Assembly (NCBI RefSeq): GCF_000376865.1 | Contig: NZ_AQXQ01000003.1 | Coordinates: forward strand, 1 to 58,756 | Length of the DNA stretch: 58,756 nt | Reading direction: 5' to 3' | DNA from: Thioalkalivibrio sp. ALJ7 | GTDB lineage: Bacteria > Pseudomonadota > Gammaproteobacteria > Ectothiorhodospirales > Ectothiorhodospiraceae | Shown here: piece by piece, positions 6,362-58,492 of the stretch | Layout of the letters: the number at the start of each line of letters is the position of its first letter | Position numbering within the stretch: position 1 is the first letter of the stretch | The notes under the pieces: model-generated | What the model was told of the DNA's origin: nothing | Database searches by the model: none | What the model saw: the letters and a program-made list of their open reading frames with translations, nothing else | Program-made: the position numbers and the translations under genes

Positions 6362-6733
6362 CTAGTAGCCCGTGCTGCCGTGAACGTCCGGCGGGGCTTC
6401 GCGGGTCAGCATGGCCCAGGTCAGGTGGGCCATGACCTCCGGAGCCACCACGGTATGGCGATTTCCCGTGTTCTGCATCCCTTCGCGCAATTCCTGCCGC
6501 ACATGCGGCTGCCCCGATAGATCAAAGATCACATCCACCTGGTCCCCACGCGCCACGATATCCGCGACCGACTCGAGTGGAATCCCCTTGGATTCCGCCA
6601 GGCGCCGACCATCGGTCTCGGCCCTCTCCGAGGCGGCGCAAATCGTCATTCCCGGCAAACCACTTTCTAACAACATTTCCAGGAAGCGGCCGCCCACCCG
6701 GCCCAGCCCCACCACTGCAATCTGAATCGACAT
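6362..6733 (-). CDS. Small NAD(P)-binding Rossmann-fold protein
   Basis: A 123-residue protein that starts with a dinucleotide-binding motif (VVGLGRVGGRF, GxGxxG type) followed by beta/alpha elements, as in the N-terminal NAD-binding domain of homoserine-dehydrogenase or aspartate-dehydrogenase-like oxidoreductases. It stops before any catalytic domain. It may be a stand-alone redox-sensing or KtrA/TrkA-N-like domain, or a cut-down oxidoreductase; I cannot name a substrate. The ATG at 6731-6733 has GGAGAG just upstream. The longer frame seen upstream overlaps the neighbouring promoter region and is not supported. It is convergent with the MASE3 gene and divergent from the nuclease gene. Confidence 0.7.
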   Translation of the reverse strand: MSIQIAVVGLGRVGGRFLEMLLESGLPGMTICAASERAETDGRRLAESKGIPLESVADIVARGDQVDVIFDLSGQPHVRQELREGMQNTGNRHTVVAPEVMAHLTWAMLTREAPPDVHGSTGY

Positions 6734-6939: not shown

Positions 6940-7587
6940 ATGGAAAACGTTCATCTGCCGATCCGCGTAGACAATCGCGAACAGGGCAAGATCATTCAGC
7001 GCATCGAGCGCCTGGAGGGCGTGGAACTGGAGTTCACCGACCTCGATGTCGGCGACTACGAACTGCCGAACGGCGTGGTGGTGGAGCGCAAATCCGCCAC
7101 CGACATGGTGCTAAGCGTGGTCGACCAGACCCTGTGGGAGAACGCCGCCAAGCTGAAGGCCAACCATGATCAGGTGGTCTACATCGTCGAGGGGGACTTG
7201 TACGAACCGCGCTTCCATCAGCAGGCGCTGGACATTCATCGTGCCCTCGCCCACCTCACCATCGCCTTGGGCGTAAGCGTACTGCCTAGCCCCGATGCCG
7301 ATAACAGCGGCATGCTGATCTACTTGCTGGGCCTGAATGCACAGCTAGAACCCGATGCCACCGCCCGCCCCACACGCCCGGACAAGCGCCGCGCGGCAGC
7401 CGAGTTCATCGTCAGCGGGTTACCCGGCGTGGAACCGGACCAGGCCCGCGAAATGTTGCGCCAGCTCGGCAGCGTCCGGGATATCGTCAACGCCAACGCC
7501 GACACCCTGGCCGGCATCGAGGGCATTGATGAAGAGCGCGCCCAGCGCATCGAGTCGGTCGTTACCTATGGCAGCCGCAACCACTGA
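6940..7587 (+). CDS. ERCC4/XPF-type structure-specific nuclease with HhH2 domain
   Basis: A 215-residue protein with the layout of short archaeal XPF or the nuclease half of Hef. The N-terminal ERCC4 nuclease domain (residues ~5-135) has IRVDNREQ, GDYELPNGVVVERKSATD (the GDxnERKx3D catalytic motif complete), YIVEG and a late ISVLPS-like strand. A C-terminal tandem helix-hairpin-helix (residues ~150-205) has GLPGVEPDQAREML and GIEGIDEERAQRI. The family cuts branched or flap DNA at fork junctions, usually as a dimer. No helicase domain is present. The start is the ATG at 6940, after a weak GGAG. Such proteins are common in archaea and eukaryotes but sporadic in bacteria, so transfer is plausible. 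It is a single gene between unrelated neighbours. Confidence 0.88.
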   Translation: MENVHLPIRVDNREQGKIIQRIERLEGVELEFTDLDVGDYELPNGVVVERKSATDMVLSVVDQTLWENAAKLKANHDQVVYIVEGDLYEPRFHQQALDIHRALAHLTIALGVSVLPSPDADNSGMLIYLLGLNAQLEPDATARPTRPDKRRAAAEFIVSGLPGVEPDQAREMLRQLGSVRDIVNANADTLAGIEGIDEERAQRIESVVTYGSRNH

Positions 7588-7611
7588 GAAAACCCGAGCC
7601 GCAACCAGCCG

Positions 7612-9063
7612 CTATCCGGACCCGGATTCGACATCTTCCAGTACATCCTGAAGCTGGGCATCTCCGGCCCAGCCACCACCCAATGCCCGATACAGGTCAG
7701 CGGTCGCGGCCAGCCGGTCGCGTGAAGCGTCGGTCAGCGTCAAGCGCGCTTCGAACAGAGCCCGCCGCGCATCCAGCACTTCGAGGTAGCCCACAAATCC
7801 TCCCAGGTAACGCCGTTCCGCCAGGCGCACGACCTCAATGCGAGCGGTCACCTCCCGCTGGTAGATCTCCACGCGCTCATGCTGGGCGCGCAATTCGCTC
7901 CAAGCATCCGCCACCTCGACCACAGCGTCCTGGATCGCCCCCTGGTACTCCAGCTCGGCGATATCCCGCTCGACTTCCACACCCTCGATGGTCGCCTGAC
8001 GGCGTCCGAAATCCAGGATCGGGGCAACCGACTGGGCGCTGATTTCCCATAGCCCGGCCGCGCCGGTAAAGAACTGGCTCGGCCGGTTCACCTCGTTACC
8101 CAACAGGGCCGCGAGATTCAGACTGGGCAACCATTCGGCTCGCGCCACTCCGATATTGGCGTTGGCCGCGATGAGCGAGGCCTCGGCGGCACGAATGTCG
8201 GGCCGCCGCACCAGCAGGTCGGAGGGAATGGAATGCGGCAACCCGTCCAGGGTCTCCGGCAGTTCCTCCAGACCGTGATCGCCCAGAGAATCCAGACCCT
8301 CGACGACCGCCTCGCTATCCCCCACCAGCACCGCCAGGGCCCGGCGCAGCCGTTCCGCCTCGGCCTCCAGTGAGGGCAGCCCGGCGCGGCTGGTTTCCAG
8401 CTCTGCCTCGGCCTGGCGTACGGTCAGGTCCGTTGTGGCTCCACTCTCCAGGCGCGAACGCTCCAGACCCAAAGCCTCGATCAGGGACTGAATGGTGTCC
8501 TCGGTGGTATCGATTTGTTCGCGGGTAGCGCGGTAGTCGAAATAGGTACTTACCACATCGCTCATAACCGCCAGCCGGACGGCATCACGTGTAAAGGCCG
8601 TGCCCAGCAACTGTGCCCGCGCCGCCTCTTCGGAGCGCGCCAGCCGGCCCCATAGGTCGACTTCGTAACTGAGTCGGCCGAACACGGCCAAGTCGGTTTC
8701 GGGGCCATCCCCGCCTATGCCCGGGTCTTCCCGCTCCGCCTCGATCACACCGTCCAGTTGCGGGTAGCGTTCCGCCCGCTCCAGTCCCAACACAGCGCGT
8801 GCCTGGACCACCCGTGCCGCCGCGATCTCGGTCTCGATGTTGTTCTCCAGTGCTTCGCGCACCAGACGGTCGAGAATCGGGTCCTCGAACATCTCCCACC
8901 AGAACTCGACGTCGGAATAGTCGACGTCCATCTGCTCATCAATCTCCTCGGGCCAGGCCTCGGGGAGCGCGACATCCGGACGCTCATAGTCCGGCCCCAG
9001 GGCGCAACCACTCAACCAGACGGTTCCCGCGAGCCCCACCAGTCCCACCAGTGACTTACGCAT
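7612..9063 (-). CDS. RND efflux system outer-membrane channel lipoprotein (OprM/NodT family)
   Basis: A 483-residue outer-membrane factor that forms the trimeric exit duct of a tripartite pump. It has a lipoprotein signal (GLAGTVWLSGCALGPDY, lipidated Cys followed by the CxxGPDYxRP pattern usual for NodT-type channels). Two repeated long helical segments are typical of the TolC fold, with the family signature LLVRRPDIRAAEASLIAANANIGVARAEWLP. The ATG at 9061-9063 has GGAGG upstream and overlaps the end of the pump gene by 8 nt, showing translational coupling. It is last in the three-gene operon. Confidence 0.93.
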   Translation of the reverse strand: MRKSLVGLVGLAGTVWLSGCALGPDYERPDVALPEAWPEEIDEQMDVDYSDVEFWWEMFEDPILDRLVREALENNIETEIAAARVVQARAVLGLERAERYPQLDGVIEAEREDPGIGGDGPETDLAVFGRLSYEVDLWGRLARSEEAARAQLLGTAFTRDAVRLAVMSDVVSTYFDYRATREQIDTTEDTIQSLIEALGLERSRLESGATTDLTVRQAEAELETSRAGLPSLEAEAERLRRALAVLVGDSEAVVEGLDSLGDHGLEELPETLDGLPHSIPSDLLVRRPDIRAAEASLIAANANIGVARAEWLPSLNLAALLGNEVNRPSQFFTGAAGLWEISAQSVAPILDFGRRQATIEGVEVERDIAELEYQGAIQDAVVEVADAWSELRAQHERVEIYQREVTARIEVVRLAERRYLGGFVGYLEVLDARRALFEARLTLTDASRDRLAATADLYRALGGGWAGDAQLQDVLEDVESGSG

Positions 9064-52371: not shown

Positions 52372-52782
52372 TCAGCGGTGGTATTCGCCCGCCCGCTCTG
52401 GCTGGTACTCGACCTCCACGATTCGCACATGCATCTGCCCGCCACCCGGGCGCGGCCACTCGATCTCGTCCCCCTCGGAAAGCCCCAGTAGGGCACTGCC
52501 CACCGGCGCCAGGATCGACAGCGTGCCGCCGCTTTCATCCACGTCCCGCGGGTATACCAGCGTCATCGAGAATTCCTCGCCGGACTCGGTCACCCGGAAC
52601 CGGACCTTCGAGTTCATCGTCACCACCGCACCCGGGATCTCGTGCGAATCCACCACATCCGCGCGATCCAGCTCGGCCTCCAGATCGGCCTTGCCCAGAA
52701 AGGCATCCTCCGGCAGCGATTCCAACAGCTTGTCCAGGCGCTCCATGTCCGTGGTGGAGACGATGATCTTCGGCTTGTTCAC
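52372..52782 (-). CDS. rnk: Regulator of nucleoside diphosphate kinase Rnk
   Basis: A 136-residue GreA/GreB-fold protein that binds RNA polymerase and raises nucleoside diphosphate kinase levels. It is the same length as E. coli Rnk and close in sequence: VVTMNSKVRFR, TLVYPRDVDESGGTLSILAPVGSALLGLSEGDEIEW, and LEYQPE-like EVEYQPERAGEYHR. I chose the GTG at 52780-52782 because GGAG is 7 nt upstream; an earlier GTG is too close to that ribosome site. Confidence 0.93.
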   Translation of the reverse strand: MNKPKIIVSTTDMERLDKLLESLPEDAFLGKADLEAELDRADVVDSHEIPGAVVTMNSKVRFRVTESGEEFSMTLVYPRDVDESGGTLSILAPVGSALLGLSEGDEIEWPRPGGGQMHVRIVEVEYQPERAGEYHR

Positions 52783-52947
52783 GTTCACACTCCAAATACA
52801 CGACGCGCCCCCAGAGAGACGCGCCAGAGAAGAAAATTCAGGGATTTTTCCGGAAACCGGGAAACGAACTTCGAGATTAGCCAAGTCTCGACGAAAAAGC
52901 GATCCAGCCAATCACGGCACTGGAATACCGATCCGCCCGCACGCTCA

Positions 52948-53295
52948 CTACCGGCCCTCGCCGTCCCGCCAGGCCGCATAGCCACCGCGCAGCACATGCG
53001 CATCGATTCCCATCGCCCGCAGGCTGTCGGCCACCAGCTGGGACCGTCCACGCCCCCCACAGAACACCACGACGGGCTGCTGGGGGTCCTGCATGTGGGA
53101 TTCGATGGTGGCCTCCAGCTTGGGCCGGGGAATATTCACCGCGCCCTCAATCGTACCCTCGGCCGCCTCCTCCGGCTGACGCACGTCCACCAGCAGAAAC
53201 GGCTTCCCGTCCTGGCGCCAGCGGGCCACCTCGGCCGGTTCCAGATGCGGCAGACTCTGTTCCAGATCACCAATACGTTTCTCGAAAAGACTCAC
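52948..53295 (-). CDS. Single-domain rhodanese (sulfurtransferase)
   Basis: A 115-residue cytoplasmic rhodanese. It has FLLVDVRQPEEAAEGTIEGAVNIP and the active-site loop VVFCGGRGRSQL, with the catalytic Cys and a loop of standard length, then LRGGYAAW. It should carry persulfide sulfur to a thiol acceptor. The GTG at 53293-53295 has GGAG 7 nt upstream. The leader GGAGTGTG-xxx-GTG is the same as that of rnk, which lies next in line. It lies 46 bp after the Trx-membrane gene and is probably in the same minus-strand transcript. Confidence 0.9.
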   Translation of the reverse strand: MSLFEKRIGDLEQSLPHLEPAEVARWRQDGKPFLLVDVRQPEEAAEGTIEGAVNIPRPKLEATIESHMQDPQQPVVVFCGGRGRSQLVADSLRAMGIDAHVLRGGYAAWRDGEGR

Positions 53296-53341
53296 GGACA
53301 CACTCCGAATCGTGGGTAGGCCACCATCCTGTCGCGCGGGC

Positions 53342-54010
53342 TCAAAGGGAAGGACGCACCAGCAGCGGCACCACCCGAACCGTAAACAGCGCCAGGCCGA
53401 TCAGCGCCGCCAGAGCACCTGCCGCCGTCAGGATCGCAACCCCCAGGATCCAGCCCAGGCCCATCCCCACCACGGCCAGATGCACCAGGATCTGTGGTGC
53501 CCAGGCCCACAGCCAGCCGCCCGCGATCGGGTGCCCGGTAAAGCGCGGCAGCATGTGCTCCCCAAGTCCCATGATCAGCAGCGACAGAAAGCCCAGGGTA
53601 AAACCGTGCAACGCGGCCGGGCGCGCCGCTCCGTCAAGAAAAAAGCCCCCCAATGGCAAGGCCGCACCGGCAATCAGCAGCCAGACCATCGCCCCCAGCA
53701 CCGAGGCCCGGCTGGAGGGCGACAGCCCCAGCCCCACATGCCGGGCCGCCTTCTGCGTACGCTCCGGGGCGGCGCCCACCAGTTCGGTCGCGGCCGTGCG
53801 ATCCAGCAGACCGATGTGCTTGAGCTCGCCATCGACCACCACCGCCGGGATGGACCGGATACGCAGCCGGGTCGCCAGTTCGCGGCCCTCCGGCTGGCCC
53901 ATGTCAACCACGGCGAAGTCGATCTGTTTGTCCTCGGCCACCTGGCGCCAGATGCGCTCGGCATCGTGGCAGGAGGCACACCATTCGGATACCAGCAGTT
54001 CCACCTTCAT
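53342..54010 (-). CDS. Thioredoxin-domain protein fused to a membrane domain with an HxLPRF motif
   Basis: A 222-residue fusion. Residues 1-~75 are thioredoxin-like (VELLVSEWCASCHDAERIW, redox CxxC at C11/C14, SIPAVVVDG with the cis-Pro). Residues ~103-220 hold four hydrophobic helices. The second helix reads LHGFTLGFLSLLIMGLGEHMLPRF; its His135 and His152 align with His43 and His60 of the adjacent 4-TM protein, 17 residues apart in both. The motif recalls NnrS and heme-copper-oxidase-subunit-I-like proteins and could bind heme or metal. Good GGGGGAGA ribosome site, 18 bp after the lipoyl-protein stop. Function not established. Confidence 0.75.
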   Translation of the reverse strand: MKVELLVSEWCASCHDAERIWRQVAEDKQIDFAVVDMGQPEGRELATRLRIRSIPAVVVDGELKHIGLLDRTAATELVGAAPERTQKAARHVGLGLSPSSRASVLGAMVWLLIAGAALPLGGFFLDGAARPAALHGFTLGFLSLLIMGLGEHMLPRFTGHPIAGGWLWAWAPQILVHLAVVGMGLGWILGVAILTAAGALAALIGLALFTVRVVPLLVRPSL

Positions 54011-54028
54011 GAATCCGTCTCCCCCGGC

Positions 54029-54481
54029 TCAGTCCGCGCAGCGCATGCAGTGGATGTCGTAACGATCGATCCATTGCTTGAGGCCGACGATCGCTTCGGG
54101 CCCGGTATGCAGGCGTTCCAGTGCCTTCTGCGGATCATCCGGCCGCATCACCACCACCCAGGCGTCGGTATAGGGCGCAACGTTCACCAACCCCGGGTCG
54201 GCCTCCACCGCGGGGTTAATCCGCTCGATGGTGCCGTCGAACGGTGTGGGGATGCCGCCAGCCCACTTGCCCGACTCCAGCCGCGCCACCGGCTTTCCCG
54301 CCGCCCGGTGCGAACCCGGCTTGCGAAAGCGGAAGTACTGCACCCGCCCGGCCATGGTCTGGGCGGGATCGGTAATCCCGAGGGTAAAGGTCCCGTCGTC
54401 CTCCGGACGCACCCAGACGTAATCCAGGTCGTAGAACAGGTCATCCGGCAATTCGCAGCCGTTGTATTCCTCGCGTGCCAT
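54029..54481 (-). CDS. Lipoyl-carrier protein, LbpA/GcvH-like
   Basis: A 150-residue protein with a GcvH-like fold. The opening YNGCELPDDLFYDLDYVWVRPE is the form seen in LbpA proteins of the sHdr sulfur-oxidation pathway more than in glycine-cleavage H proteins. The lipoylated lysine is Lys72 in RLESGKWAGGIPTPFDG. The C-terminus ends HCMRCAD, a CxxC that true GcvH does not have. No gcvT/gcvP or shdr genes lie in the window. It lies two bases after the 4-TM gene and 18 bp before the Trx-membrane gene, so it belongs to the same operon. LbpA assignment is probable, its partner unknown. Confidence 0.78.
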   Translation of the reverse strand: MAREEYNGCELPDDLFYDLDYVWVRPEDDGTFTLGITDPAQTMAGRVQYFRFRKPGSHRAAGKPVARLESGKWAGGIPTPFDGTIERINPAVEADPGLVNVAPYTDAWVVVMRPDDPQKALERLHTGPEAIVGLKQWIDRYDIHCMRCAD

Positions 54482-54483
54482 GC

Positions 54484-54882
54484 TCAGGCCCCCTTCGGTC
54501 CGTAGTGCCGCACGGTCAGCGCGATGTTCACGGCAAACAGGATCATCGCACCCCATGCCATCGCACCACCGACCGCGACGGTCGGGTTATGGAACAGCAA
54601 CCAGCCCGCGACCATCACCCAGAGTCCGACGTTCGCCAAAAGGAACTGTGCGTGCCCCAACCGTTCGGAGAACAACGAGCGCCCTGAAAAACGAGGCAGC
54701 ACGTGCAGGCCCACGCCGTAGATCATCATGATCACGAATCCCAGCAGCATCAGGTGCCCATGGATGCGCGGCACGTTGCCCGGGATCAGCCCTGGCTGTG
54801 CCAGCCAGACGATGCCGAGCAGCCCGCCCAGCAGGGCGTAGATCAGGGCTGCGAGAATGAACATCCGGTTGCGAGGGTGCAT
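54484..54882 (-). CDS. Small four-helix membrane protein with paired histidines (NnrS/heme-copper-oxidase-I-like motif)
   Basis: A 132-residue protein with four predicted helices (~7-29, 41-63, 78-97, 104-124). Helix 2 reads RIHGHLMLLGFVIMMIYGVG, followed by LHVLPRFSG; histidines 41, 43, 60 and 77 are candidates for heme or metal binding. The pattern resembles part of NnrS (His...GF...VPNW) and of subunit I of heme-copper oxidases, but the protein is far too short for either. AAGGAG precedes the ATG at 54880-54882. It is first gene leftward of the FNR box. Function is unknown. Confidence 0.7.
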   Translation of the reverse strand: MHPRNRMFILAALIYALLGGLLGIVWLAQPGLIPGNVPRIHGHLMLLGFVIMMIYGVGLHVLPRFSGRSLFSERLGHAQFLLANVGLWVMVAGWLLFHNPTVAVGGAMAWGAMILFAVNIALTVRHYGPKGA

Positions 54883-54937
54883 GGAACGCTCCTTGTCGGG
54901 ATTTGCACAGCGTACTTTAAGTTATATTTGGCATACA

Positions 54938-54951
54938 TTGATCGAAATCAA
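54938..54951. promoter_or_regulatory. Perfect FNR/ANR/DNR-type box
   Basis: TTGAT-CGAA-ATCAA, an exact match to the palindromic consensus. It lies between divergent operons. Rightward, TAAAAG at 54973-54978 would be a -10 that puts the box centre near -40.5, the class II activation position. Leftward, TAAAGT (minus strand, 54914-54919) gives a box position near -37. Either FNR (oxygen) or DNR (NO) could bind. Confidence 0.88.
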
Positions 54952-55016
54952 GACGGCCATCAGCCGTTTCCGTAAAAGTCTTGCCTCAAGGTAACTTTCG
55001 AGACCCAAAACCCGCA

Positions 55017-55559
55017 ATGGACTTACACCTTCACAAGCCCATCCCTGGATTCCAGCAGCCTATCGAGCTGCTGCGGGCCTGCCATCGCAGGATCTTCAAC
55101 TCCCTGGATATCCTGGAGCGCCTGCCGGCACGTCTGCAGGACAACGGTGTCGATGAGGAGGCTCGCACTGCGGCGGACCGAATCCTCAAGTATTTCCACG
55201 AGGCGGCACCCAACCATCATGCGGATGAAGACGAAGATCTCTTCCCCCTCCTACGGCGCCATTGCGACCACCCCGAAAGCCACCCACAGCTTTGCGAATG
55301 GCTGGATCGCCTCACGGCCGAACACACCGAGATCGAGGCCGGCTGGGATCGCCTGGAGCCCGACCTGGAACGCATCGCAAGCGGTGAGCGGGCGGAGCTC
55401 ACCGGCGCCGCTGCGTGGATCGAGCAATACCGGGTTCACCTCGATCTGGAGGAACGCGCCGTGCTCCCGTTTGCCGAGTATCTGCTGGGGCCGGAGGACC
55501 GCCGCGCCATCGGCGCCTCGATGGCTGCTCGCCGTGGCATCCAGCCAACCGCCGATTGA
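55017..55559 (+). CDS. Hemerythrin HHE-domain protein
   Basis: A 180-residue helical protein with the hemerythrin di-iron pattern: FNSLDIL..., HHADEDEDLFPLLRRH, EHTEIE, and HLDLEERAVLPFAEYL. These give the His/Glu ligands in the expected order. Bacterial proteins of this kind bind O2 or protect against NO, and some repair iron-sulfur clusters. I chose the ATG at 55017; a TTG 36 bases earlier would fall at the predicted transcription start. First gene rightward of the FNR box. The next gene begins 8 nt after its stop. Confidence 0.88.
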   Translation: MDLHLHKPIPGFQQPIELLRACHRRIFNSLDILERLPARLQDNGVDEEARTAADRILKYFHEAAPNHHADEDEDLFPLLRRHCDHPESHPQLCEWLDRLTAEHTEIEAGWDRLEPDLERIASGERAELTGAAAWIEQYRVHLDLEERAVLPFAEYLLGPEDRRAIGASMAARRGIQPTAD

Positions 55560-55567
55560 ACCCTGAC

Positions 55568-56272
55568 ATGGCGGATTTTGTTCTCGATCTTCGCGGGCTG
55601 GCCGAACACGCCCATACCCGCGCCTACTACACCCTGCGAGAACTGCGCACCGCACAGGTCTTCGAGGTCTGGCTGGATCAAGAACCGAAGCTGCTGATGG
55701 ATGCGATCAGCCAGCAACTGCGCCATGCAATCCACTGGCAAACCCTTGCCGAAGGTCCACCGCTTTGGAAGCTCTCGGTGCAGCGCCGCGAAGACGTCGC
55801 CCCTGTGGATCTAGTGGATCTTCTGGAACGCGATCACCTGCGCATCGACCGCCTGTTCGCCAGCGCCCTGCACAAGGTCAATGCCGGCGACCTGGAGGGG
55901 GCCGCACCGGATTTCCACGCCTATGTGGATGGACTGCACCGTCACATCCAGGTGGAGAATGAAATGATCGTGCCGCTCCTCGACCTGCCCCGCAGCCCCA
56001 ATGGACAGGACCCGACCTCCATCATGCTGCGCGAACACGACGAGATCCTGGAACAGACCACGATGCTGGAGCACGAATTCAGCGAAGGCGTGGACGAAGC
56101 CTGGGCGGTGGCCCCGTTCTTCGCTCTGATCTCCGGGGCACTGGCAAAACACGAGGGCCGCGAGGAACAGAACCTGTTCCCACTCTGGAGTCGCGCCCTG
56201 CGCGAGCGTCCTGATGAAGCCGCTGAATTACTAGCCAGCGCACAATCCAGACTCGATGCCCAGAAGCGCTAA
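55568..56272 (+). CDS. DUF2249-hemerythrin fusion protein
   Basis: A 234-residue protein. Residues 1-~75 match DUF2249 (LDLRGLAEHAHTRAYYTLREL...LDQEPKLLMDAISQQL...GPPLWKLSVQRR), a TusA-like fold often encoded near denitrification and NO-response genes. Residues ~80-225 form a hemerythrin domain (DHLRIDRLF, HIQVENEMIVPLL, EHDEILEQ, HEGREEQNLFPLW). The pairing suggests a redox or NO-linked sulfur or thiol function, but the biochemistry is not established. Co-transcribed with the preceding hemerythrin. Confidence 0.85.
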   Translation: MADFVLDLRGLAEHAHTRAYYTLRELRTAQVFEVWLDQEPKLLMDAISQQLRHAIHWQTLAEGPPLWKLSVQRREDVAPVDLVDLLERDHLRIDRLFASALHKVNAGDLEGAAPDFHAYVDGLHRHIQVENEMIVPLLDLPRSPNGQDPTSIMLREHDEILEQTTMLEHEFSEGVDEAWAVAPFFALISGALAKHEGREEQNLFPLWSRALRERPDEAAELLASAQSRLDAQKR

Positions 56273-56350: not shown

Positions 56351-58492
56351 GTGGATCCGTTGAACCCTCCCCGCCCGGAAGTTGGCTTGCTCCCAAAGTT
56401 ACCCGCTCATGCTGTCGCGATCATCGTTGCCCTGTTGCTTGCCACAACAGTCAAGGCAGCCACCGAGCAATCCCCCACGCCGGACCCACTGATAGTCGCC
56501 CAGGACCACGCCTGGCCCCCGTTTGCCTTTCGCAACGACCACGGCCAGCCTCAAGGGCTTCTGGTGGACCTGTGGCAAGTGATCGGAGACGCCCTCGGAC
56601 GTCCCGTGGAGTTTCGCTTGGTGGACTGGCCGGAGACACTGGAGGTCGTACGCGAAGGTGAGGCCCAGGTACACGGTGGATTGATTGCCTCGCAGGAACG
56701 CCAAGAGTACCTGTCATTCAGTGAGCCACTGCTACCACTGCGCACCTTTGCCTTCGTACGCACAGGCACCCCCAACACCCGGTTGTCCGACCTGGGCCAG
56801 GAACCCGTTGGCGTGACGGCCGGGAGTTTCGAGCTGGAATACTTGCGCCGCGAACACCCGGATCTCGAGGCGCGAACCTACAACAACAATGAAAACATGA
56901 TCCAGGCCGCCGTGGACGGCGAGATCAATGCCTTCGTGGCCGATTATCCCGTCGCGATGTACCTGCTGGATCGCCACACCGTACCCGATCGGTTTCACCC
57001 GGTGGAACGCTTGTACGAGCAAGCTCTGCGAGCTGCGGTAGCTCACGGCAACGAAACACTGCTCGCCGAGATCGAGGGAGCCCTCGACACCATCGACGAG
57101 GCCCAGCTAAGACAGATCCAACAACGCTGGATCCATGGGCAAACCGTCACCCTCACACCCACTTGGGTAGCTCCGACACTGGCGGCCCTGATCCTGACGA
57201 GCCTGCTGGGCTATCTGTTGCTACTAGTACGCCAACGGCGACAACTGACCGAACGAATAAAGCAACGCACAGCCGAGCTGGATGAAGAACGCGAAATCTT
57301 TCGTACGCTCTCCGATCACTCGGCCGCCGGAGTATTCATCCTTCAGGGCAAGCATTTTACAACCGTCAACCAGGCCATGGCCCACATCCTGCGCCGGCCC
57401 CAATCCTCCCTGCTAAGCCAACCCTTCGAGGAATTCATACACCCGGATCACCGCCAAGCCGTCACGCAACGAGCACGCGACCGCCTGGCCGGCGAGGCCG
57501 TACCAGAGGAGTACGAAATCAAGCTGATCACCGCGGACGGCGAGCCCCGTTGGGCCGAACTGAACGCCGGGCGCGTACAGCTGCGATCAGGCCCGGCCAC
57601 AGTCGGAACAGTTTACGACACCACCCACCGCCGAATGCTGGAGGACCAGCTGCGCGCCAGCGAAACCAAATATCGGCAACTGGTCGAGAATGCCAGCGAC
57701 ATCATCTACACCCTGACGCCCGACGGCATTATCGATTACGCCTCACCTCAATGGACATCGGCCCTCGGTTACCCCATCGAAGAAGTCATCGGTACGCATA
57801 TCTCGGAATACATCTACGCGGACGACATGGATGCCTGTGGTGAATTCCTCCATCTGATCATTACCACGAAGGGCGAAAGCCAGGAGATCGAATACCGGAT
57901 CCGCCACCAGGACGGCAGCCTGCGCTGGCACATCTCCAGCGGCGCACCCATTCTCGATTCTCGAGGACAGACGATTGGATACGTCGGCGTGGCCCGCGAC
58001 AACACCGAGCGCCGACGCCTCCAGGAGGAGGTCGAATACCAGTCGCAATTCAATGCATTGCTGGCCAACCTCTCTTCGGATTTCGTCACTGCCCACGCCG
58101 AGATCATTGACGACCGGATCAACGCCGCGCTCGCGAGCATCGGGCAGTTCTTCGAAGTCGGCCGCGCCTATCTTTTCCGGTTATCACCGGAGGGCACACG
58201 CATGGACAACACCCACGAATGGTGCGCCCCTGGTGTTTTCTCGGTGATGCACGAATTGCGTGACGTGGAGCTGGCCAGCCTGCCGTGGTGGCAGGACCGC
58301 ATGCGCGCCATGCTTGCAGCGCGCCGCATGGTGAGCATCCCCGATGTGGCACAGCTACCCGAGGCTGCGAAGGTCGAGAGAGAACTATTCCAGGGACAAG
58401 GCATCCGCAGCCTGGTTTGCACCCCCATCCTGGCCGGGCAACAGGTGACCGGTTTTATCGGCATGGATGCTCTAGATGTGATCTCTCAATAG
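56351..58492 (+). pseudogene. SBP-PAS-PAS-GAF sensor protein truncated by IS481
   Basis: The native gene runs to 58476; the rest of the frame is IS sequence. It encodes a signal-like N-terminus, a solute-binding-protein family 3 domain (LIVAQDHAWPPFAFRNDHGQ...), a helix (PTLAALILTSLLGYLLLLV), two PAS domains (GVFILQGKHFTTVNQAM; NASDIIYTLTPDGIIDYASP) and a GAF domain cut in its last third (TGFIGMDAL). The IS adds a few codons and a TAG. The missing part probably held the output, by analogy a GGDEF/EAL pair, but that is inferred. The start is a GTG at 56351 with no good ribosome site. A truncated sensor could still fold but would lack its output. Confidence 0.85.

Follow-up and report, generated by a model that had tools for sequence, protein, structure and literature searches.

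This study concerns a set of six genes and their shared control region in Thioalkalivibrio sp. ALJ7. The stretch analysed (the window, 58,756 bases) is contig C3 of the 2.71 Mb genome. In it two divergent operons, recognised from the open reading frames and a pattern scan, flank the FNR box TTGATCGAAATCAA at 54938..54951. Leftward from the box, on the minus strand, lie a protein with four transmembrane segments (4-TM protein, 132 amino acids, 54484..54882), a GcvH-like lipoyl carrier (150 amino acids, 54029..54481; Pfam GCV_H, 102.3 bits), a thioredoxin with the motif CASC fused to a 4-TM half (222 amino acids, 53342..54010; Pfam Thioredoxin_3, 37.7 bits), and a rhodanese-like protein (117 amino acids, 52948..53301; Pfam PF00581, 4.3e-18, 66.1 bits). 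From the coordinates, the gaps between these genes are 2, 18 and 40 bases. The 4-TM protein is assigned by alignment, a structure model and a sub-threshold COX1 match.

The rightward operon, on the plus strand, encodes a hemerythrin-domain protein (55017..55559) and a DUF2249-hemerythrin (55568..56272, 234 amino acids, starting at ATG 55568). For the first of these the start at ATG 55017, giving 180 amino acids, is preferred, and TTG 54981 is possible; the Pfam search was run from the upstream start 54981. Both match PF01814 (1.7e-16 and 1.3e-14; 61.3 and 55.2 bits vs a cut-off of 25.3), and the DUF2249 domain is also above the Pfam cut-off (PF10006, 9.7e-08, 32.2 bits). The first-pass annotation had described this same divergon, and all six genes and the box lie at the positions it gave, with the rhodanese, thioredoxin, lipoyl protein and hemerythrins above their Pfam cut-offs.

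Spread of the gene set

We scanned 84,980 species genomes with the carrier alignment and kept the best 80 of 96 loci (the 80 loci), with flanks of at most 6 kb. A separate set holds 15 loci from the same order (order-level loci), which has 47 genomes. The 80 loci come from Thioalkalivibrio, Acidithiobacillus, Acidiferrobacter, Sulfuriferula, Thiobacillus, Sideroxydans, Burkholderiales and other proteobacterial bins, with iron oxidisers and many sulfur oxidisers among the hosts; one lies in a bin labelled Terriglobia, which may be mis-binned. The leftward core of 4-TM protein, carrier and fusion is intact in 14 of the 15 order-level loci. The idea that the genes are conserved together is supported: the core is kept in relatives, including other genera, and among the loci compared the six-gene set is complete in Thioalkalivibrio only. 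The carrier is the most conserved member, with 93-99% identity in the main group (L031-L042), and the ten named relatives in this range are all labelled Thioalkalivibrio. We found no description of the gene combination in searches of the open-licence PMC literature, and the operon is not mentioned in the available text of a 2019 Thioalkalivibrio arsenite transcriptome paper (PMC6620896).

Individual loci vary. In L045 (genome G044, 6399-6533), a deletion fuses the 5' end of the 4-TM gene to the 3' end of the carrier gene, and the box and the DUF2249-hemerythrin remain. In L033 the DUF2249-hemerythrin gene is broken across two frames (7349-8302). Acidithiobacillus sp. HP-2 has three copies of the carrier cluster (L094, L098, L109).

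A profile search of open reading frames in the 80 loci identified the frequent companions of the carrier: hemerythrin in 55, a CRP/FNR-family regulator in 38, DUF488 in 21, a [2Fe-2S]-flavin reductase in 16, globin in 14 and an LplA-type ligase in 13. Thirteen of the 14 loci with globin, of the Acidithiobacillus type, also have the flavin reductase. The companion regulators carry an E-[TS]-x-S-R recognition helix in 37 of 38 cases; most have three cysteines or fewer, with no FNR-like N-terminal cysteine cluster. In Acidiferrobacter-type genomes the LplA-type ligase gene is divergent to the CRP-carrier cluster (L072, L074, L078, L086, L088, L104, L106, L107, L117, L121, L122), at about 4.1-5.2 kb in full-length loci, and it is likely a dedicated ligase.

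FNR box, NsrR-type site and distribution of NO-related genes

The box between the operons had been called perfect, and TTGAT-N4-ATCAA is indeed matched exactly at 54938 and at no other position of the window. With up to one mismatch the window holds 2 matches, where an average of 0.57 would be expected by chance. Of the 15 order-level loci, 13 have the exact box and L042 has it with one mismatch; it is missing from T. halophilus (L044). For the 80 loci, we defined module promoter windows as the 200 bases upstream of module genes, with starts taken from protein matches; they cover 51,154 bases, or 6% of 856,485. These windows contain 22 of the 29 exact boxes, 13 of the 22 outside Thioalkalivibrio, and 27 of the 74 boxes with one mismatch, so that the conservation expected in relatives extends to 42 of the 80 loci when exact and one-mismatch boxes are taken together. 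Nineteen palindromes with permuted half-sites gave 4 matches in total and none in the promoter windows. Conservation and these controls rule out a chance box. An earlier count from gene-caller starts (exact in 13 of 80 loci, up to one mismatch in 25 of 80) was replaced because several starts had been miscalled. The ALJ7 genome has one match to a CRP/FNR query, with a CxxCxxxxxC cluster near the N-terminus and a central cysteine, and it scores above the NCBIfam Fnr cut-off (253.5 vs 228). A conserved promoter TTGAT-N4-ATCAA together with an FNR in the genome would place both operons in the predicted FNR regulon.

A degenerate NsrR-type operator (11 of 14 positions, 54921..54939) overlaps the start of the FNR box. 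The consensus, gATGyAT-N5-ATrCATc, is from PMC1274295, whose available part also describes an FNR-like site beside the NsrR site at hcp. A first test with a 23-base NsrR consensus was suggestive, and the published 14-position form was clearer. In the window and the 15 order-level loci (253,475 positions), all 8 sites of at least 12/14 abut the box, at 12-13/14 in eight relatives. The 80 loci likewise hold 8 sites of at least 12/14, of which 4 abut the box and a fifth is a 14/14 site in the betaproteobacterial locus L071. The presence of this putative operator beside the box is a new observation. In L071, the perfect operator lies within the cluster, between an NsrR-like Rrf2 gene (50% identical to that of T. 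halophilus) and a DUF2249-hemerythrin-like stretch (27%, tblastn); a FeS_assembly_P gene is also beside the NsrR-like gene. In T. halophilus (L044/L073) the operon is divergent to the flavohemoglobin gene (Hmp), with an NsrR-like gene alongside. In addition, 11 hmp promoters of the genus have sites of 10-13/14, the strongest in genome G023 (13/14, 86 bases upstream of hmp). For the NsrR-like protein of ALJ7 itself, which has three cysteines, the best NCBIfam family is NsrR.

The distribution of the module within the genus agrees with these sites. In 30 genus genomes, 23 of them at least 90% complete, the module carrier is present in 14. NsrR is found in 15, namely all 14 carriers and G025 (14/14 vs 1/16; Fisher p 2e-7), and Hmp in 12, all of them module carriers (12/14 vs 0/16; p 1e-6). 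LbpA1/2-like matches, assigned by identity band with the sHdr neighbourhood checked in ALJ7 only, occur in 26 genomes, 13/14 of the module carriers vs 13/16 of the others (p 0.6). Across the order, 20 of the 47 genomes have NsrR, and no genome lacking NsrR has a 4-TM match of at least 60% identity. Module presence follows NsrR and flavohemoglobin, not the sHdr lipoate proteins.

Carrier, thioredoxin and membrane halves

The GcvH-like protein would bear a lipoyl group on the lysine of an ESGKW motif, which is found in the window carrier and in 80 of 80 relatives. All 80 relatives also have a C-terminal C-[ML]-R-C, which reads CMRC in the window carrier; the latter has, in addition, GCE near its N-terminus. 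An ordinary GcvH is rejected by the NCBIfam gcvH scores, which are under their cut-offs (94.7 vs 117 and 78.5 vs 115.85), and by the tree, where the ALJ7 GcvH, a separate gene on contig C9, and LbpA2 fall outside the carrier group (support 98/91). LbpA1 of ALJ7 also falls outside this 45-row group, with weaker support (92/77) and long branches. Thioredoxin is present in the same locus for 77 of the 80 carriers, within 200 bases in 42, within 1.5 kb in 76 and at 3.2 kb in L119. The three loci without it are L096, on a short contig, L102 and L108.

The 4-TM protein is homologous to the membrane half of the thioredoxin fusion (hhalign, 99.6%). As the first-pass annotation had noticed, both share a paired-histidine motif followed by LPRF. 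The motif is H-x16-H, formed by H43 and H60 in the 4-TM protein and by H135 and H152 in the fusion. In two 31-row alignments, each made of selected rows of the 80 loci and the window, H41, H43 and H60 of the 4-TM protein are invariant, as are C11, C14, H135, H152 and PRF of the fusion. The 4-TM gene occurs in 43 of the 80 loci; 42 of these have a fused thioredoxin (with a shortened membrane part in L071), and the 43rd, L115, has a broken fusion. No fused thioredoxin is found in the 37 loci without the 4-TM gene. Because the 4-TM gene occurs only with the membrane-anchored thioredoxin (42/43 vs 0/37), the two membrane halves travel together. The thioredoxin domain is probably cytoplasmic, since it stands at the N-terminus and no signal peptide is evident.

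AlphaFold2 models of the fusion and the 4-TM protein have mean confidence (pLDDT) values of 91.0 and 90.1, and the latter has four helices. Foldseek matches it over these helices to CcoN and other haem-copper oxidase subunits I, with TM-scores up to 0.78 by query length, and hmmsearch pairs H41 and H43 with the HxH of CcoN (E=2.4e-5). The HxH histidines of CcoN are haem ligands. The resemblance of the 4-TM protein model to one four-helix arc of CcoN makes haem-type membrane electron transfer plausible, in line with what had been suggested for this operon. The 4-TM protein differs from CcoN and NnrS in its length of 132 amino acids, its four transmembrane segments and its thioredoxin-bearing partner. 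It is not a haem-copper oxidase subunit I proper (Pfam COX1, 24.4 bits vs a cut-off of 34.8; four helices rather than 12) or NnrS proper (Pfam NnrS, 16.2 bits vs 28).

Other multi-TM proteins were seen near the carriers. One family, represented by L087 (3863-5122) and relatives, has no Pfam match (L087 searched), gives profile hits in 6 of the 80 loci and adjoins clusters that mostly lack the 4-TM protein. The L071 protein at 7692-8924 and cluster 27 look NnrS-like by eye; the two proteins searched had no Pfam match, and they were not counted as NnrS.

Proposed function and alternatives

The best explanation of these data is probably an FNR/NsrR-controlled module for defence against nitric oxide (NO) at low oxygen, with a dithiol relay to membrane haem and hemerythrins. 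The assignment to NO and low oxygen, taken by itself, we regard as likely. The first-pass annotation had suggested a module induced by low oxygen or NO, and the putative NsrR operator by the box, the FNR of ALJ7 above its cut-off, the NsrR-like protein and the co-occurrence with NsrR and flavohemoglobin all favour this idea. Regulation is predicted here from conserved sites, regulators and co-occurrence; we further infer lipoylation, haem, electron direction and substrate.

In the proposed mechanism, FNR would activate and NsrR would repress the divergent promoters, and therefore the genes would be made at low oxygen with NO present. The lipoyl dithiol of the carrier may swap electrons with its dedicated thioredoxin; in this lineage the latter would be tethered to a two-subunit complex in the membrane, on the cytoplasmic side. 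In each membrane half, a single helix carries a pair of invariant histidines with a spacing of 17 residues, so the two proteins together could bind two b-type haems across the membrane. The dithiols of lipoyl and thioredoxin are stronger reductants than quinone or b haems, so electrons should leave the dithiols for haem, NO or quinone. They would run downhill from dihydrolipoyl to thioredoxin and then either to the haems and quinone or to haem-bound NO. We regard this electron route as possible but less likely than not. The two di-iron hemerythrins might bind NO, reduce it or provide iron for repair, and overall NO or S-nitroso adducts would be removed. Such a role agrees with published chemistry: S-nitrosothiols are denitrosated by thioredoxin and lipoic acid, according to the title of Stoyanovsky 2005 as cited in PMC9598160, and lipoyl thiols are modified by NO-derived species, according to the abstract of PMC9974485.

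Several known systems are comparable. The M. tuberculosis lipoyl-peroxiredoxin/AhpD peroxynitrite reductase passes electrons from dihydrolipoyl to a CXXC protein and on to a nitrogen-oxide or peroxide sink, taking its lipoyl group from a dehydrogenase E2. The module would follow the same order, but it has a dedicated carrier and haem/di-iron partners. Like the NO regulons of NsrR, FNR and DNR (hmp, hcp, ytfE/dnrN, nnrS; PMC1274295), it has an FNR box by an NsrR-type operator and the company of Hmp and hemerythrins. It differs in that the terms 'glycine cleavage' and 'lipo' do not occur in the text of that paper.

A number of observations weigh against the NO-defence explanation. No box lies within the promoter windows of 38 of the 80 loci, and a hemerythrin profile match is absent in 25, some of them on short contigs. 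The NsrR-type site of the window itself is weak, and the 8 stronger sites belong to related genomes. Three of the 8 sites of at least 12/14 in the 80 loci are away from module promoters (L069, L074, L111), and 4 of the 11 hmp promoters reach 10/14 only. A genus-wide scan allowing 1 mismatch gave 31 sites in 21 of the 30 genomes, many without NsrR and none in ALJ7, and therefore the pattern alone does not define the regulon; at least 3 of the 31 sites are at the module or hmp, and a reversed-pattern control gave 1 site. The NsrR-like protein of ALJ7 scores 143.4 bits, under the cut-off of 182. Genome G017 and the incomplete G032 have the module and no Hmp match, and the profile counts represent few independent events because 13 of the 14 carriers are close relatives. 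The Foldseek match to CcoN has a probability of 1.0 and a TM-score of 0.77, but E-values of 0.05 or more. Finally, the thioredoxin of Acidithiobacillus and Acidiferrobacter is soluble, and so the core does not depend on the membrane part. Since many of the soluble Acidithiobacillus forms stand beside globin and reductase genes, the carrier-thioredoxin pair may be the core, with an exchangeable electron exit.

Alternatively, the module could serve oxygen homeostasis, with hemerythrins and a membrane haem buffering or sensing oxygen for microaerobic growth and the thiol pair keeping di-iron and haem centres reduced. FNR/CRP-type boxes are more widespread than NsrR sites, the module is found in iron oxidisers, and the hemerythrins and globins of such bacteria are read as oxygen-handling proteins in the accessible part of PMC3770913. 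The NsrR operator, the NsrR gene and the Hmp association speak against this, as does the NsrR-like gene of L071 with its DUF2249-like and FeS-assembly neighbours, and we consider the oxygen explanation unlikely.

We give about the same low weight to a repair function, in which the hemerythrins would act like RIC/YtfE on Fe-S or lipoyl enzymes after NO damage, with carrier and thioredoxin as reductant. There is weak similarity to RIC (TIGR03652, E=3.2e-5), the FeS_assembly_P gene of L071 would fit, and dnrN/ytfE is also under NsrR control according to an excerpt of PMC1274295. An identity as RIC/YtfE is, however, rejected by TIGR03652 scores of 17.4 and 23.8 bits vs a cut-off of 204.7, and no Fe-S assembly gene was noticed among the conserved neighbour clusters inspected, although no search aimed at such genes was made.

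The link to lipoyl-bound or persulfide sulfur made in the first-pass annotation is not supported. Here, the carrier would be a third LbpA that moves sulfane sulfur from the rhodanese, with electrons passing via thioredoxin to the membrane under low oxygen. The carrier is 45% identical to LbpA1 of ALJ7 and, like sHdr LbpA (PMC6067878, excerpt), it has a GcvH-like single lipoyl domain with ESGKW, an LplA-like ligase being near in 13 of the 80 module loci. In addition, many hosts are sulfur oxidisers and the rhodanese is inside the operon here. The sHdr-LbpA1-LbpA2 locus of ALJ7 is on contig C7 (L133, 2130-13959), and contains LbpA1, LbpA2, DsrE, ligase and radical-SAM genes, named by comparison with the available part of PMC6067878. 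Of eleven proteins of this cluster that were searched, nine are without a match in the 80 loci: there is none to HdrA, HdrC1, HdrC2, HdrB2, DsrE, radical-SAM, GGR or Hyp within the flanks, TusA being outside the search. The ligase matches 13 loci at 26-33%. HdrB1 matches two: the gene of L090 (341-1660, minus strand, 76% identity) lies about 4.3 kb off, and that of L103 (3947-4357, plus strand, 70%), which the contig end interrupts, about 1.9 kb off, both at the margin of the sequence analysed. These two genes, which slightly raise the probability of this reading, are the only trace of an sHdr cluster, and the module also differs from sHdr LbpA in its thioredoxin and hemerythrin partners, its FNR/NsrR sites and the C[ML]RC of all 80 relatives. 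The rhodanese adjoins the operon in 9 of the 80 loci, all Thioalkalivibrio, and in 11 of the 15 order-level loci, one of them cut by a contig end; L094, L098, L100 and L112 have a rhodanese match of 28-30% about 3 kb off. It is an accessory, next to the operon in Thioalkalivibrio only. Together with the profile independent of LbpA1/2 and the NsrR operator and Hmp associations, this neighbourhood does not fit a third LbpA of sHdr, which we keep as a rival and judge a little less probable still than the oxygen and repair explanations.

If the NO-defence explanation is extended, the module could tentatively represent a new lipoyl-dependent class: a stand-alone carrier with a C-terminal CxxC and a dedicated thioredoxin for nitrosative defence. 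In one branch it would be linked to the membrane by a di-haem remnant of an oxidase/NO-reductase-like fold, split into two subunits, and the dithiol would drive the removal of NO by way of haem and di-iron proteins. Few systems with lipoyl carriers are known, and LbpA, the one accepted in sulfur oxidisers, is regarded as belonging to sHdr. A related carrier controlled by NO and oxygen would caution against calling every GcvH-like protein of these bacteria a sulfur carrier. Lipoic acid, whose thiols are attacked by NO, would gain an active part in NO defence, a new job for it. Because the membrane halves are so strictly paired, they are predicted to form a thioredoxin-haem membrane complex of a new type, and the gene set would be placed, in testable form, in culturable Thioalkalivibrio and Acidithiobacillus.

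Two further genes flank the divergon. An Rnk-type nucleoside diphosphate kinase regulator (52372-52791, minus strand; NCBIfam, 161 bits vs a cut-off of 109) is the next gene after the rhodanese in those Thioalkalivibrio loci whose contig reaches that far (10 of the 15 order-level loci). On the other side, an SBP_bac_3-PAS-GAF sensor protein (56351-58492, plus strand) has 713 amino acids here, whereas its counterparts in six related loci have 914-962; it stops early, close to where the contig stops, and may be frameshifted or truncated.

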